This document shows, in pieces, positions 55,279 through 63,073 of a DNA stretch of 64,000 bases (its first letter is position 1; every line of letters begins with the position of its first letter). A program made the position numbers and the translations under genes. Source of the stretch: Gemmatimonadaceae bacterium (GTDB lineage Bacteria > Gemmatimonadota > Gemmatimonadetes > Gemmatimonadales > Gemmatimonadaceae); contig JADLCY010000011.1 in the NCBI GenBank assembly GCA_020846935.1, positions 558,001-622,000 on the forward strand, given 5' to 3'. The notes below the pieces were generated by a model. That model made no database searches and was not told the DNA's origin. It saw only the letters and a program-made list of their open reading frames with translations.

Positions 55279-55812
55279 TCAGGCAGCGATTGGCGCCGGC
55301 GTCGCAGGCGGCACTACCAGCACCGGCGCCGACGGCGGCCCCACCGCCTCATCGGGCGCAGACAACCGCGCGAAGCGCGAGATCGTCCGCCACTCCGCCA
55401 GCTTCGACGGCGACCGCTCCAAGTGCGGTGACACCATCGCGTCGAGGATCCTCACGACGCTCCGCCCTCGCGCATACTGCTGCCGAAGCGCCGCCGTCGA
55501 GGCCGACCGCCTCCCGAAGTCCGACGCGCGCGCATCGATCCCTACCCGCAGGTCCGCGGCCGACCTGCGCAGCTTCTCCACGAAGTCCTCCGGGAAGCCG
55601 ATGCTCACGAACGACGCCTTGTGTTCCTCGACGAAGTCCGCGACGCCCTCCGCGTCCGCGATGGTGCTGGTGTTGTCCCGCGCCGTCAGCAGCGACAGCG
55701 ACGCAACGAGCGGCCTCCGGAGACAGCACCGTCGCCGCATGACTGATCGGGCGCAGGAACTCGCGTCGCACCGCGGCGATCTGCGCCTGCTTCACCCGCG
55801 TGCTCGCGGCCG
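55279..55812 (-). pseudogene. Conserved hypothetical gene, frameshifted and cut by an IS
   Basis: The readable part (55279-55740) encodes TARDNTSTIADAEGVADFVE, FPEDFVEKLRRSAADLR and RGRSVVRILDAMVSPHL, a helical family seen in several GC-rich environmental phyla. Further upstream the homology continues in another frame (QIAAVRREFLRPISHAATVL) up to about 55812, where transposase sequence begins. So there is a frameshift near 55700 and the 5' end is lost. Family function unknown. Confidence 0.6.
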
Positions 55813-56569
55813 CAGCCGAGGTGCGGGAGCGCCGCGCGCAGCGGCGCCATCCGGTCTTTGCCGCGCCCGAACGGCTCACCACCGGCCCGAACCAGGTGTG
55901 GAGCTGGGACACTACGCGCCTCAAGGGGCCGGCGACGTGGACGTGGTACCACCTCTACCTGCTGCTCGATATCTTTAGTCGCTATGTGGTCGGCTGGCTG
56001 GTCGCCCCTCGCGAATCGGCCGCCCTCGCCGAACGACTCATCGCGACGAGTTGCGCGCGACAGGGGATTCTTCCACGCCAGCTGACCGTCCACGCCGATC
56101 GGGGCGGCGCGATCACCTCCAAGCCCGTGGCGCTGCTCCTGGCCGATCGGGGCGTCACGAAGACGCATTCCCGGCCCCACGTCTCGAACGACAATCCGCT
56201 CTCCGAAGCGCAGTTCAAGACGCTCAAGTATCGTCCCGCCTTTCCCGGTCGTTTGGCTCCCTCGTGGACGCGCGCACCCACGGAAACGTGTTCTTCCCTT
56301 GGTACAACACGGCGCATCGCCACCGCGGCCTCGGACTGCACACGCCGCACGACGTGCACTACGGCCTTGCCACCGCGCGCCCGGCCGCCCGTGCGGCCGT
56401 CCTCACCGCCGCGTACGGCCGGCATCCCGAACGCTTCGTGCGCCACTGCCCGCTCCCGCCCATGCTGCCCACCGCCGCGTGGACCAATCCCTCCAACTCC
56501 TCGGCGCATCGCCCGCGTTGGAGGACGTCGCTCAGTAAACTCAACCACCCGGTATCTCAACTCCGTTGA
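55813..56569 (+). pseudogene. IS3-family transposase OrfB (integrase core), truncated and frameshifted
   Basis: DDE integrase core: WSWDTTRLKGP (first Asp), HADRGGAITSKPVALLLADR (second Asp), then SRPHVSNDNPLSEAQFKTLK (Glu). After KYRPAFPGR the frame breaks by one base near 56250, and the homology continues in another frame with ARTHGNVFFPWYN and HRHRGLGLHTPHDVHYG. The N-terminal third of OrfB is missing. Cannot transpose on its own. Followed by CTCCGTTGACAGGCTCCGTTGAG, a short direct duplication at the boundary. Confidence 0.85.
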
Positions 56570-56578
56570 CAGGCTCCG

Positions 56579-57336
56579 TTGAGCCCTCCCCTTCTTGCCG
56601 GCGAGCGGCTCAGCCCTGGCTCCGTCTTCGGGTTGACGCCTGCGGAGCGCGCCCAATGCCGCACCGCGTTTGCGTCCCTCCGCAACGAGGGAATGTTTAC
56701 CCCACCGTCGCTGCAAGGCAGCGTCGCATGGCCAGGGCTGTGGGGAGGAATGAACTGGGATGGCCTCACATGGGACCTGTAAGGCATCGACTCGTCGCGA
56801 CAGTCAAACGAGTCGCCATGGTAGTCAGATTGCACCACAGAAGTCGCGCGACGGCCCCGGCTACGGCAGATCAGCCCATCGAATGGTTAGCGCAGGATGG
56901 AAGCCCGTACGCAGCGACCAGGGGACCGCTCGTGGTGGCCTCCGGAACACCATGTTCGCCCCCTCCGTGGGGTAAGGTCGTGGCACTCGAAATTGCGAAC
57001 TCGCGAGTTGACATCGCGTGGGAACGTCCCTTGGGAACCGTCCCTTGGCTACAAGGTCACAAGGGCTACGAGAGCTGGGGCTCGCTCTCATTTGGAGGAC
57101 CATTGATGATCGCTTCTGGCCTCACCTTTGTAGCGGGCTCGCAAGACGGCAAGATTCGCGCACTCGACGTGTCTGACGGTAGCCCAGTTTGGGAGCGTCA
57201 GCTTCCAGCGGGCGGACAAGCTTCACCGATGACCTACGTCCTCGACGGCAGGCAGTATGTCGTAGTCGCTGCGGGCGGGCGAAGTGGAATCGGCGCACCC
57301 GGAGACTGGGTTGTCGCGTTCAGGTTAAGGGAGTGA
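56579..57336 (+). pseudogene. 3' part of a PQQ-type glucose/alcohol dehydrogenase gene
   Basis: Two frames together give the C-terminal quinoprotein propeller: frame one 56579-56782 (GLTPAERAQCRTAF, MFTPPSLQGSVAWPG, GGMNWDGLTWD), then a one-base shift near 56780 into frame two (GPVRHRLVATVKRVAMVV ... GHKGYESWGSLSFGGPLMIA, DGKIRALDVSDGSPVWERQ, VVVAAGGR). Everything upstream, with signal peptide and catalytic Asp, is missing where the IS3 fragment begins. Non-functional remnant. Confidence 0.8.
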
Positions 57337-57402: not shown

Positions 57403-57654
57403 CTACACCGCCTCCGCCCTCTCCGTCACCACCCGCACGTTGTCATCGACCACCTGAAGAAACCCACCCTCCACCGCGAACCGCCCGGCCGACCCACCCG
57501 CGCCGAGCCGCAACGTCCCCTTCCCCAGCAACGTCATCATCGGCGCGTGCGAGGTGAGGATCCCCACCTCGCCATCGAACGCCGGCGCGGTCACCTGCTC
57601 CACCTCGCCCTCGAACAGCGTCTTCTCCGGAGAGATCACCGAGACCTTCAGCAT
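57403..57654 (-). CDS. atpC: ATP synthase F1 epsilon subunit
   Basis: 83 residues, the short form containing only the N-terminal beta-sandwich (KVSVISPEKTLFEGEVEQVT, GEVGILTSHAPMMTLLGKG) without the C-terminal helical pair that inhibits ATPase in E. coli. Links gamma to the c-ring. Starts four bases after atpD. Confidence 0.92.
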   Translation of the reverse strand: MLKVSVISPEKTLFEGEVEQVTAPAFDGEVGILTSHAPMMTLLGKGTLRLGAGGSAGRFAVEGGFLQVVDDNVRVVTERAEAV

Positions 57655-57658
57655 CGCC

Positions 57659-59197
<1,539 letters not shown>

Positions 59198-60058
59198 CTA
59201 CTCCAGGGCCGCGGCGCCGCCGACGATCTCCGCGATTTCCTGGGTGATCGCGGCCTGACGGGTGCGGTTATAGGTGCGGCGGAGCACGTTGAGCATCTCG
59301 CCCGCGTTGTCCGTCGCGCTCTTCATGGCGGTGCGACGGGCGCCCTGCTCTCCCGCGGCCGTTTCCACGAGCGCGCGATAGACCTGGTTGCGCACATACA
59401 ACGGCAGCAGGTCCGACAGGATCGCCTCGGCGGATGGCGCGAGGATGTAGTCCGGCGCGGCGCCCTTCCGCTCGGGCGGAGCCACGGGAAGTATGCGGCT
59501 CGTCGTGGGCGGCGTGGAGAGCGCAGAACGGAACTGCGCATACACGACGTACACCGCGTCGAGCTGACCATCGATGAACTGCTGCATGATCCCGTCGATC
59601 AACGCGCTCGCGTTCTCGGCGCTCGGCTTCTCGGAGATCATGGTCGTGACCGAGGCGAGCTGCTCCCCCACATAGCGGAAGTAGCCGACGCCACGGCGAC
59701 CCTCGACGTGCAGGTCCACCGCCACGCCGCGCTCGCGGAGCCGCGCCAGCAGGCCGCGGGCCTCGCGAATGAGGTTCGAATTGAAGCCGCCGCACAGGCC
59801 GCGGTCCGCGGTCATGAGGATCACGGCGGCGCGCCGCTCGCGCTCCGGCTGGCGCAGGAGCGGAAATCGTTCAGCGAGATCCGGCGAATAGAGACCCGAA
59901 AGCACCTCGGCGAGCGCATTGGCGTACGGGCGCGCCGCGGTCACGCGATCGAGCGCCCGCTTCATCTTGGCGGTCGCCACCATCTCCATGGTGCGCGTGA
60001 TCTTCCGCGTGTTTTCGGTCGTCTTGATCCGACCTTTCAGCTCTCGGCCTTTAGCCAT
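59198..60058 (-). CDS. atpG: ATP synthase F1 gamma subunit
   Basis: 286 residues; central rotary shaft. N-terminal helix MAKGRELKGRIKTTENTRKITRTMEMVATAKMKRA and the C-terminal ATDNAGEMLNVLRRTYNRTRQAAITQEI helix are both canonical, with the Rossmann-like middle domain between. Located between atpA and atpD as usual. Confidence 0.96.
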   Translation of the reverse strand: MAKGRELKGRIKTTENTRKITRTMEMVATAKMKRALDRVTAARPYANALAEVLSGLYSPDLAERFPLLRQPERERRAAVILMTADRGLCGGFNSNLIREARGLLARLRERGVAVDLHVEGRRGVGYFRYVGEQLASVTTMISEKPSAENASALIDGIMQQFIDGQLDAVYVVYAQFRSALSTPPTTSRILPVAPPERKGAAPDYILAPSAEAILSDLLPLYVRNQVYRALVETAAGEQGARRTAMKSATDNAGEMLNVLRRTYNRTRQAAITQEIAEIVGGAAALE

Positions 60059-60118: not shown

Positions 60119-61687
<1,569 letters not shown>

Positions 61688-61727
61688 GTCGGGACGGTGC
61701 GTAAGGATCGGACGACGGGCTGTCTTT

Positions 61728-61755
61728 GGGGCTTGTGAAAATTATCACAAGCCCC
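61728..61755. promoter_or_regulatory. Perfect palindrome with CRP-like half-sites upstream of atpA
   Basis: GGGGCTTGTGA-AAATTA-TCACAAGCCCC: eleven-base perfect arms around a six-base AT core. The inner part is TGTGA-N6-TCACA (61734-61749), the consensus of CRP-family operators. Read on the minus strand, TTGAAT (61768-61763) and GATAAT with an upstream TG (TGTGATAAT) could be -35 and extended -10 of the atpA promoter, spacing 15, so the operator would overlap the -10. The alternative is a terminator for the AraC-type gene, but no U-run follows. Confidence 0.6.
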
Positions 61756-61763
61756 TGGGGCAT

Positions 61764-62606
61764 TCAATGGGACGGTCTTGGTTTGTTGGGTCGCCGGGAC
61801 CGGTTTCGCCCCTGGCCGAACCGCTCGAACAGGTCAACCGCCCGGAGCCGAGCCAGCGAGGTTGGGCGCGTCCCGATGATCCGTTGGGCGGTCGTGCTCA
61901 GATGCGAAGATGAAGCGAAACCGAGCACCTTGGCCACGTCTCCCACGTCGTACCCGGGGTTCTTGGCCAGCTCGGCGGCCGCCAGAAGACGCACCAGGTC
62001 GATGACCCGCTTGATGTTGGGCGCATTGCTCCCCGCCGCGAAGGCTCGGCTCAAGTGTTCGCGCGTGATGCCCATCCCGGAAGCCAGGGTCTCGGTGAGT
62101 ACAGGGCGCCCACCGTAGCCGACGAGAGACGACCAGGCTTGGCGACGGAGCGGGGTGTCGATGTGCAGCACGGGGTGTGGCTCACGAAGCGCGACCGCAA
62201 ACCGACGGGTGAAGCTGAGCGGCAGGATCAGGTCGAGCAGATGCCCATCGTCCACGGAATCGACGGCGAGGTCGGCGAAATCGCTGGCCGCGCAGCGGGC
62301 GACCACGGACGCATCGGTCGATCGCAGCGGGGTCAGGCCGACGAACGGCGTGCTCGGGTATTCTCGCGCCAGGTCGATGGCGTGCGGGGTCTCGTCGTTC
62401 GGGGCGCCGAGGTCAACGAGGGCCACGTCAACGAGCTGACGGTGAAAAGCCGCGCGAAAGTCCTTGAGCTGGCGCGCAAGCACGAGGTGGTGGTGCCGCC
62501 GGGGAAACGCCTGGCGCGCGAGCGCACGCGACCGATCCCGCACGGCGAGGACGGCGATGGTGAGCGGCCCGGTGGACGCACCGCTGCGATCGACGGGGCG
62601 TCTCAC
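61764..62606 (-). CDS. AraC-type regulator with pseudo-receiver N-terminus
   Basis: About 280 residues from GTG 62606, which overlaps the Nudix stop (GTGA). The C-terminal third is an AraC-type double helix-turn-helix (SGMGITREHLSRAFAAGS ... VGDVAKVLGFASSSHLSTTAQRIIG). The N-terminal part (VALVDLGAP, TPFVGLTPL) looks like a degenerate receiver domain without the phosphoacceptor pocket clearly kept. No ligand known. It sits directly above the atp operon, and its stop overlaps the proposed atpA -35. Confidence 0.75.
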   Translation of the reverse strand: MRRPVDRSGASTGPLTIAVLAVRDRSRALARQAFPRRHHHLVLARQLKDFRAAFHRQLVDVALVDLGAPNDETPHAIDLAREYPSTPFVGLTPLRSTDASVVARCAASDFADLAVDSVDDGHLLDLILPLSFTRRFAVALREPHPVLHIDTPLRRQAWSSLVGYGGRPVLTETLASGMGITREHLSRAFAAGSNAPNIKRVIDLVRLLAAAELAKNPGYDVGDVAKVLGFASSSHLSTTAQRIIGTRPTSLARLRAVDLFERFGQGRNRSRRPNKPRPSH

Positions 62607-63073
62607 GAGGTGCCAGCGCCGGGATCGACCATGCCGGACGCCTTGCGCAACACGGCACGTGCGTTTTCGTAGGCGACGAGCGTCATCGCGCTGTCGAACG
62701 TCTCCCATCGACAGGCCGTGATCCCCTCCTCGCGCTGTGGCGTGGTATGCTCGGCGTCGGTCTCGAGGAGGAAGAAGTGGCAGACCTTGTGCACGAGCCG
62801 ACCGCGAAAGCGGAAGTACCAGTCGATGGTCTCGATGGCGCCGCGCAGTCTGAGGGCCACGAGACCGGTCTCCTCGGCCACCTCGCGCAGAGCGGCGTCG
62901 GCGGGCGCTTCCCCGTTCTCGACGTGTCCCTTGGGAAATCCCCAGTTCCTGTACGAGTCGCGGATGACGAGAAAAAGCGGCGCGTCGGGCGTCCGGCGCA
63001 CAACGATGCCGCCCGCGGAGATTTCCTCCCGGGTCTCGTCGTGCCGCTGGCTGCGGGCGCGCGCGGGCGTCAC
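62603..63073 (-). CDS. Nudix hydrolase
   Basis: 156 residues. Nudix box GHVENGEAPADAALREVAEE(TGL) at 49-71 with all catalytic Glu present; SAGGIVVRR and the IETIDWYFRF strand are typical of MutT/diadenosine-type hydrolases. GTG start is immediately after the ABC gene stop. Cleaves nucleoside-diphosphate-linked compounds; the substrate is not predictable. Confidence 0.9.
   Translation of the reverse strand: MTPARARSQRHDETREEISAGGIVVRRTPDAPLFLVIRDSYRNWGFPKGHVENGEAPADAALREVAEETGLVALRLRGAIETIDWYFRFRGRLVHKVCHFFLLETDAEHTTPQREEGITACRWETFDSAMTLVAYENARAVLRKASGMVDPGAGTS

Follow-up and report, generated by a model that had tools for sequence, protein, structure and literature searches.

The window, that is the whole 64,000-nucleotide stretch of Gemmatimonadaceae DNA that was analysed, carries the atpAGDC genes of the F1 part of ATP synthase, preceded by an AraC-type (HTH_18) gene on the same, minus, strand (Table 1). 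The two are separated by a gap of 76 bases (61688-61763), which holds a perfect palindrome, GGGGCTTGTGA-AAATTA-TCACAAGCCCC. Inspection of the sequence confirmed what the initial annotation had described there: two perfect arms of 11 bases, a centre of six A/T bases and, within the arms, the pattern TGTGA-N6-TCACA. Downstream of atpC (55800-57336) are ORFs that, by eye, resemble a disrupted integrase and the end part of a PQQ-type dehydrogenase. The genes of the F0 part are found on a different contig, contig 15 (L031:456-3235, G000:C15), in the order AtpZ-like gene, a second gene without assignment, atpB, atpE and atpF. The ATP synthase of this organism is thus split.

Table 1. Features at the atpAGDC locus (positions in the window; promoter features and operator are predictions)
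Feature	Position	Strand	Remarks
Whole palindrome	61728..61755	.	28 bases as first reported; outer GGG/CCC without conservation in relatives
Predicted Rex operator TTGTGATAATTTTCACAA, palindrome core	61733..61750	-	Letters in atpA direction; exact TTGTGA-N6-TCACAA
Predicted -10 TAATTT, with extended TG at 61746-61747	61739..61744	-	Inside operator; from family alignment; putative function
Predicted -35 TTGAAT	61762..61767	-	17 bases before -10; overlaps AraC-type stop codon; putative function
Predicted atpAGDC transcription start region	61731..61733	-	Placed from the -10 position
atpA, F1 alpha subunit	60119..61687	-	PF00006, PF00306, PF02874
atpG, F1 gamma subunit	59198..60058	-	PF00231
atpD, F1 beta subunit	57659..59089	-	PF00006, PF02874
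atpC, F1 epsilon subunit	57403..57654	-	PF02823
AraC-type (HTH_18) gene, upstream of atpA	61764..62708	-	PF12833

Within the window, the single copy of TGTGA-N6-TCACA is by itself only mildly unusual (a mean of 0.07 in shuffled windows), since at least one copy also occurs in 7 of 100 shuffles. At the scale of the 4.5-Mb genome the signal becomes clearer. The search for further copies, suggested in the initial annotation, brought the total to eight, against one for a control pattern read backwards. The longer form TTGTGA-N6-TCACAA, with up to two mismatches, occurs 43 times versus 19 for its control, and four copies are exact. When 59 genomes of the family are taken together, 188 exact copies are counted versus three for the reversed control.

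Relatives were labelled by kinship, with f1 for the same family, f2 for the sister family and f3 to f9 for more distant ones; family, order and genus are used in this sense throughout. Conservation upstream of atpA had been put forward as a test of the palindrome, and it is indeed observed: the site is present in 57 of the 60 same-family genomes examined, a count that leaves aside 15 more family genomes, and in 33 of 34 genomes of the sister family, six of these with one mismatch. Of 56 same-family loci fetched, 54 were readable upstream of atpA (G012 and G003 being unreadable), and 51 of these have the site, 50 in exact form and one with a single mismatch; it is absent from G018, G025 and G052. 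The six family genomes added to this set all have it (G156, G159, G095, G044, G101 and G126), and the one sister-family genome lacking it is G090. Absence from close relatives, the outcome that would have spoken against the proposal, is not what was found, because the site is kept in nearly all genomes of the two families. Among named records, the closest by AtpA are the Gemmatimonadota MAGs L032-L034 (81-87% identity), all of which carry the site; no site was seen at atpA on the contig read of L035 (Gemmatimonadales bacterium). Further away, one f3 genome (G085) keeps a version with two mismatches at the atpA position, another (G082) has no atpA site, and none was found at atpA in the 18 genomes examined of families f4 to f9. 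Alignment of the relatives restricts the conserved stretch to about 21 bases (CTTGTGA...TCACAAGC), the outer GGG/CCC being variable. It is therefore the core of the palindrome that close relatives have kept at atpA. A homologue of the AraC-type gene stands beside atpA in 41 of 56 loci, some of them short, and the site is also present at loci where this neighbour was not found (for instance L123, L145, L150 and L153). The AraC-type gene is thought to be a neighbour of the site, not its regulator.

The site has the same orientation in all 51 aligned family sequences, and its bases suggest the reason. At position 6, T is present in all but one of the 51 sites, A stands at position 7 in 43, and position 11 is T in all 51. 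In addition, a TTG is found 17 bases before the start of the site (positions -17 to -15: T in 44, T in 42 and G in 37, out of 50 sites whose sequence extends that far). These features point to an atpA promoter with a -35 of the form TTGnnn, a 17-base spacer and an extended -10, TGA-TAATTT, lying within the operator itself. Such an embedded promoter would explain the fixed orientation. In the sister family, position 6 is T in 28 of 33 sites, C in four and A in one, and position 11 is T in all 33. The extended -10 that the initial annotation had placed inside the palindrome thus appears plausible, its function being presumed from the conservation of these three bases. An alternative -10, GATAAT preceded by a 15-base spacer, was rejected: it would require T as its last base, where 9 of 51 sites have A, and the T at position 11 is invariant. 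The promoter elements at atpA derive solely from the family alignment; a general promoter scan of 60500-62500 returned none at its threshold.

The same conservation bears on the other reading offered in the initial annotation, in which the palindrome would be the intrinsic terminator of the AraC-type operon and would act as an RNA hairpin. In its favour, the 28 bases would fold as RNA at -20.9 kcal/mol (z -7.06). However, no T-tailed terminator-like site occurs on either strand in 60500-62500, and it is the bases of the loop, the orientation and the spacing to the TTG that are conserved, whereas the outer bases of the stem vary and the inner ones are near invariant instead of covarying. Moreover, the site is missing in G052, a genome in which rex was not found, though the ABC, Nudix and AraC-type genes remain upstream of atpA there. 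With a stem but no T tract, and with its loop, orientation and spacing conserved, the palindrome is most improbable as a terminator, and this reading was set aside.

The core of the palindrome leads instead to Rex, for which the motif TTGTGAANNNNTTCACAA has been reported (PMC5355995). The atpA site fits this type of operator by its exact TTGTGA-N6-TCACAA and departs from the fuller consensus at position 6, which is T where the consensus has A. The genome contains one rex gene, its product scoring above the cut-off for PF06971 and for the NCBIfam Rex models and matching solved Rex structures by sequence (3ikt at E 5.6e-47). In the aligned ranges, Arg47-Lys48 of this protein (QVRKDLS) stand opposite Arg48-Lys49 of Thermotoga maritima Rex, described as key DNA contacts (PMC8836258). 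Of the four exact sites of the genome, one lies 13 bases ahead of rex itself (C14) and one at atpA (C11); the third stands upstream of a multihaem cytochrome gene (C6), and the fourth has a blue-copper gene on one side and hisG on the other (C8). Two AT-rich sites with one mismatch precede an ETF-domain gene (C7) and the F0 operon (C15), the latter 20 bases before its AtpZ-like first gene; a third one-mismatch site is at C7:88733. In the corresponding records, the Rex-like sites of the multihaem cytochrome, of the ETF-domain gene and of blue-copper/hisG are at L009:2870-2887, L010:2772-2789 and L011:2918-2935, respectively. Each half of the ATP synthase thus has a Rex-like operator in front of it, exact at F1 and with one mismatch at F0.

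In the family, the site is found upstream of rex in 49 of 53 genomes, the exceptions being G007, G017, G018 and G044. These rex sites have A at position 6 in all 43 aligned cases, versus T in 50 of 51 at atpA. At F0, 46 of the 55 genomes with an atpB match were searched, over both strands of all the sequence fetched, and TTGCGA-N6-TCACAA with at most one mismatch occurs at 35 of these 46 loci. It is missing in the other 11 (G009, G017, G018, G025, G028, G047, G030, G033, G044, G052 and G055). Among these, G009 has the TTGTGA form instead, altered at one base, the upstream sequence of G028 and G047 is short, and the genomes that bear rex include G017, G030, G033, G044 and G055. Across the family, the predicted control of F0 is less uniform than that of F1. 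Position relative to the promoter would also differ: at F0, TTGCGA of the operator may itself serve as the -35, with TAnnTT 17 bases on, and at rex the putative -10 (TAnnTT) would run into the left end of the operator.

The initial annotation had proposed a CRP/FNR-type factor for the palindrome, binding before the F1 operon. TGTGA-N6-TCACA fits the CRP half-site, and the genome encodes three cNMP-domain proteins (L006, L007 and L008); of these, L006 and L007 obtain the highest scores with the NCBIfam CRP model, although neither reaches its cut-off. Yet the same core recurs before rex, as seen above, and the outer T and A of TTGTGA/TCACAA, which extend beyond the CRP pattern, are near invariant (50 and 51 of 51). 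Moreover, in a comparison across relatives that followed L006 alone among the Crp/Fnr-type proteins, the presence of the site and that of the protein come apart in both directions. G025 and G052, two genomes with neither rex nor a single exact site, retain a homologue of L006 at 71-72% identity, and the site is retained in G004, G006, G036, G037 and G039, where the best match to L006 has an E value of only 2.8e-8 to 1.8e-12. The site follows rex better than it follows L006. A protein-binding operator before the F1 operon is therefore upheld, but its assignment to the CRP/FNR class is not: in view of the fit to the Rex consensus, of the core before rex and of this double dissociation from the only cNMP protein compared, binding by a CRP/FNR-family protein is very unlikely.

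How far the site tracks rex itself was examined over larger sets of genomes. In a phylum set of 150, at least one exact site is present in 128 of 137 rex-bearing genomes versus 2 of 13 rex-less ones, G012 and G095 (Fisher p 8e-10). At atpA, within the order and with G085 and L035 left out, 87 genomes have both site and rex, three have the site with no rex found, two have rex without the site and three have neither (p 0.0014). These p-values overstate the independent evidence because the genomes are related, and the separate rex-less lineages that inform on the atpA site number two (genus g26 and G090). In the family, rex was found in 53 of 59 genomes. The rex-less G025 and G052, both of g26, lack the site at atpA and at F0 alike, and their genomes contain no exact copy; G090 of the sister family likewise has no exact site anywhere and none at atpA. 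These three are half of the six rex-less genomes readable at atpA. The site is kept, with no rex found, in G095, G027 and G038 (99%, 74% and 72% complete, respectively); in G095 the missing rex is perhaps an assembly gap. Similarly, no rex was found in G012 (98% complete), where an exact site occurs once and F0 carries a site with one mismatch. Conversely, 2 of 89 rex-bearing genomes lack the atpA site. The first, G018 (f1, genus g19; L228), has an intact-looking rex, in which the QVRKDLS helix and the two domains are preserved, and shows no site at atpA, F0 or rex, apart from a candidate with three mismatches upstream of rex; a rewiring of Rex in this genome is possible. The second, G082, has rex and no exact site genome-wide. 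Absence of the site where rex is absent thus holds as a trend. Separately, seven of the ten genomes of genus g61 in family f5 (G072, G098, G100, G103, G131, G158 and G167) contain 12 to 22 exact sites each, the other three contain 7 or 8, and the remaining 140 genomes of the set 0 to 6. This excess may reflect an expansion of the Rex regulon or, alternatively, a repeated element.

Considering these data, the core of the palindrome is very probably the operator of Rex, the NAD(H)-sensing repressor, a reading to which we give a probability of about 0.9. It is supported, at the level of sequence, by the site, the gene order, the conservation, the fixed orientation, the lack of the site in three genomes without rex and the identification of the rex gene. 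From these we infer Rex binding, repression, the response to NADH, the promoter elements and the start site. At a low NADH/NAD+ ratio, Rex would sit on TTGTGATAATTTTCACAA and cover the -10 of the atpAGDC promoter, so that F1 synthesis would be held down. A rise in NADH, for example upon shortage of an electron acceptor, would release Rex and F1 would be made; release of Rex by NADH is established for the family of regulators (PMC8836258, PMC5355995). The second operator, predicted to cover the -35 of the F0 operon on its separate contig, would act in step with that of F1, and the third, at the rex promoter, would let rex control itself. Rex would thus obstruct RNA polymerase at points that differ slightly among the atpA, F0 and rex promoters.

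With less assurance, we lean towards a broader model in which Rex would be the single coordinator of the split ATP synthase in the order, the NADH/NAD+ ratio setting the output of F0 and F1 together through operators placed in different promoter elements. In this model, the wiring at atpA would have arisen once near the base of the order, f1 and f2 possessing it and f3 retaining a decayed trace, because a rex match is found in 17 of the 18 more distant genomes (f4-f9; weak in f9) and an atpA site in none.

Control of atp by Rex is not without precedent. In Streptomyces avermitilis, Rex is described as binding and repressing atpIBEFHAGDC through TTGTGATACGGTTCACGA, with EMSA, ChIP and DNase I footprints on the promoter (PMC5355995). 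The regulator family, the type of operator, the target enzyme and the overlap with the core promoter are the same as here, and TTGTGATACGGTTCACGA also has T at position 6, as at atpA. However, the S. avermitilis genes are described as forming a single complete operon whose operator overlaps the -35, whereas here F0 and F1 are split, each with its own predicted operator, over the -35 for F0 and over the -10 for F1, in another bacterial group and as known from sequence. In Staphylococcus aureus, the Rex operators are TTGTGAAW4TTCACAA, upstream of anaerobically induced genes (PMC2883068). The palindrome and its AT-rich centre are common to both systems; the opening of the abstract of that study does not mention an ATP synthase target. 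A literature search returned no report of Rex control in the present bacterial group, which is weak evidence of absence since subscription journals were mostly outside its coverage. Rex control of atp is already proven in S. avermitilis; the lineage described here is apparently new for it.

If the proposed model is correct, expression of ATP synthase would be tied to the NADH/NAD+ ratio in a group for which we found no report of Rex control, and the prediction recurs in 90 of 94 genomes that were examined from the two families. The case also illustrates that a 'CRP site' picked by eye can be a Rex site. For these bacteria, it would mean that one redox sensor, with a proven precedent for its target, stands over the F0 and F1 parts of a split ATP synthase and has been kept there across two families.
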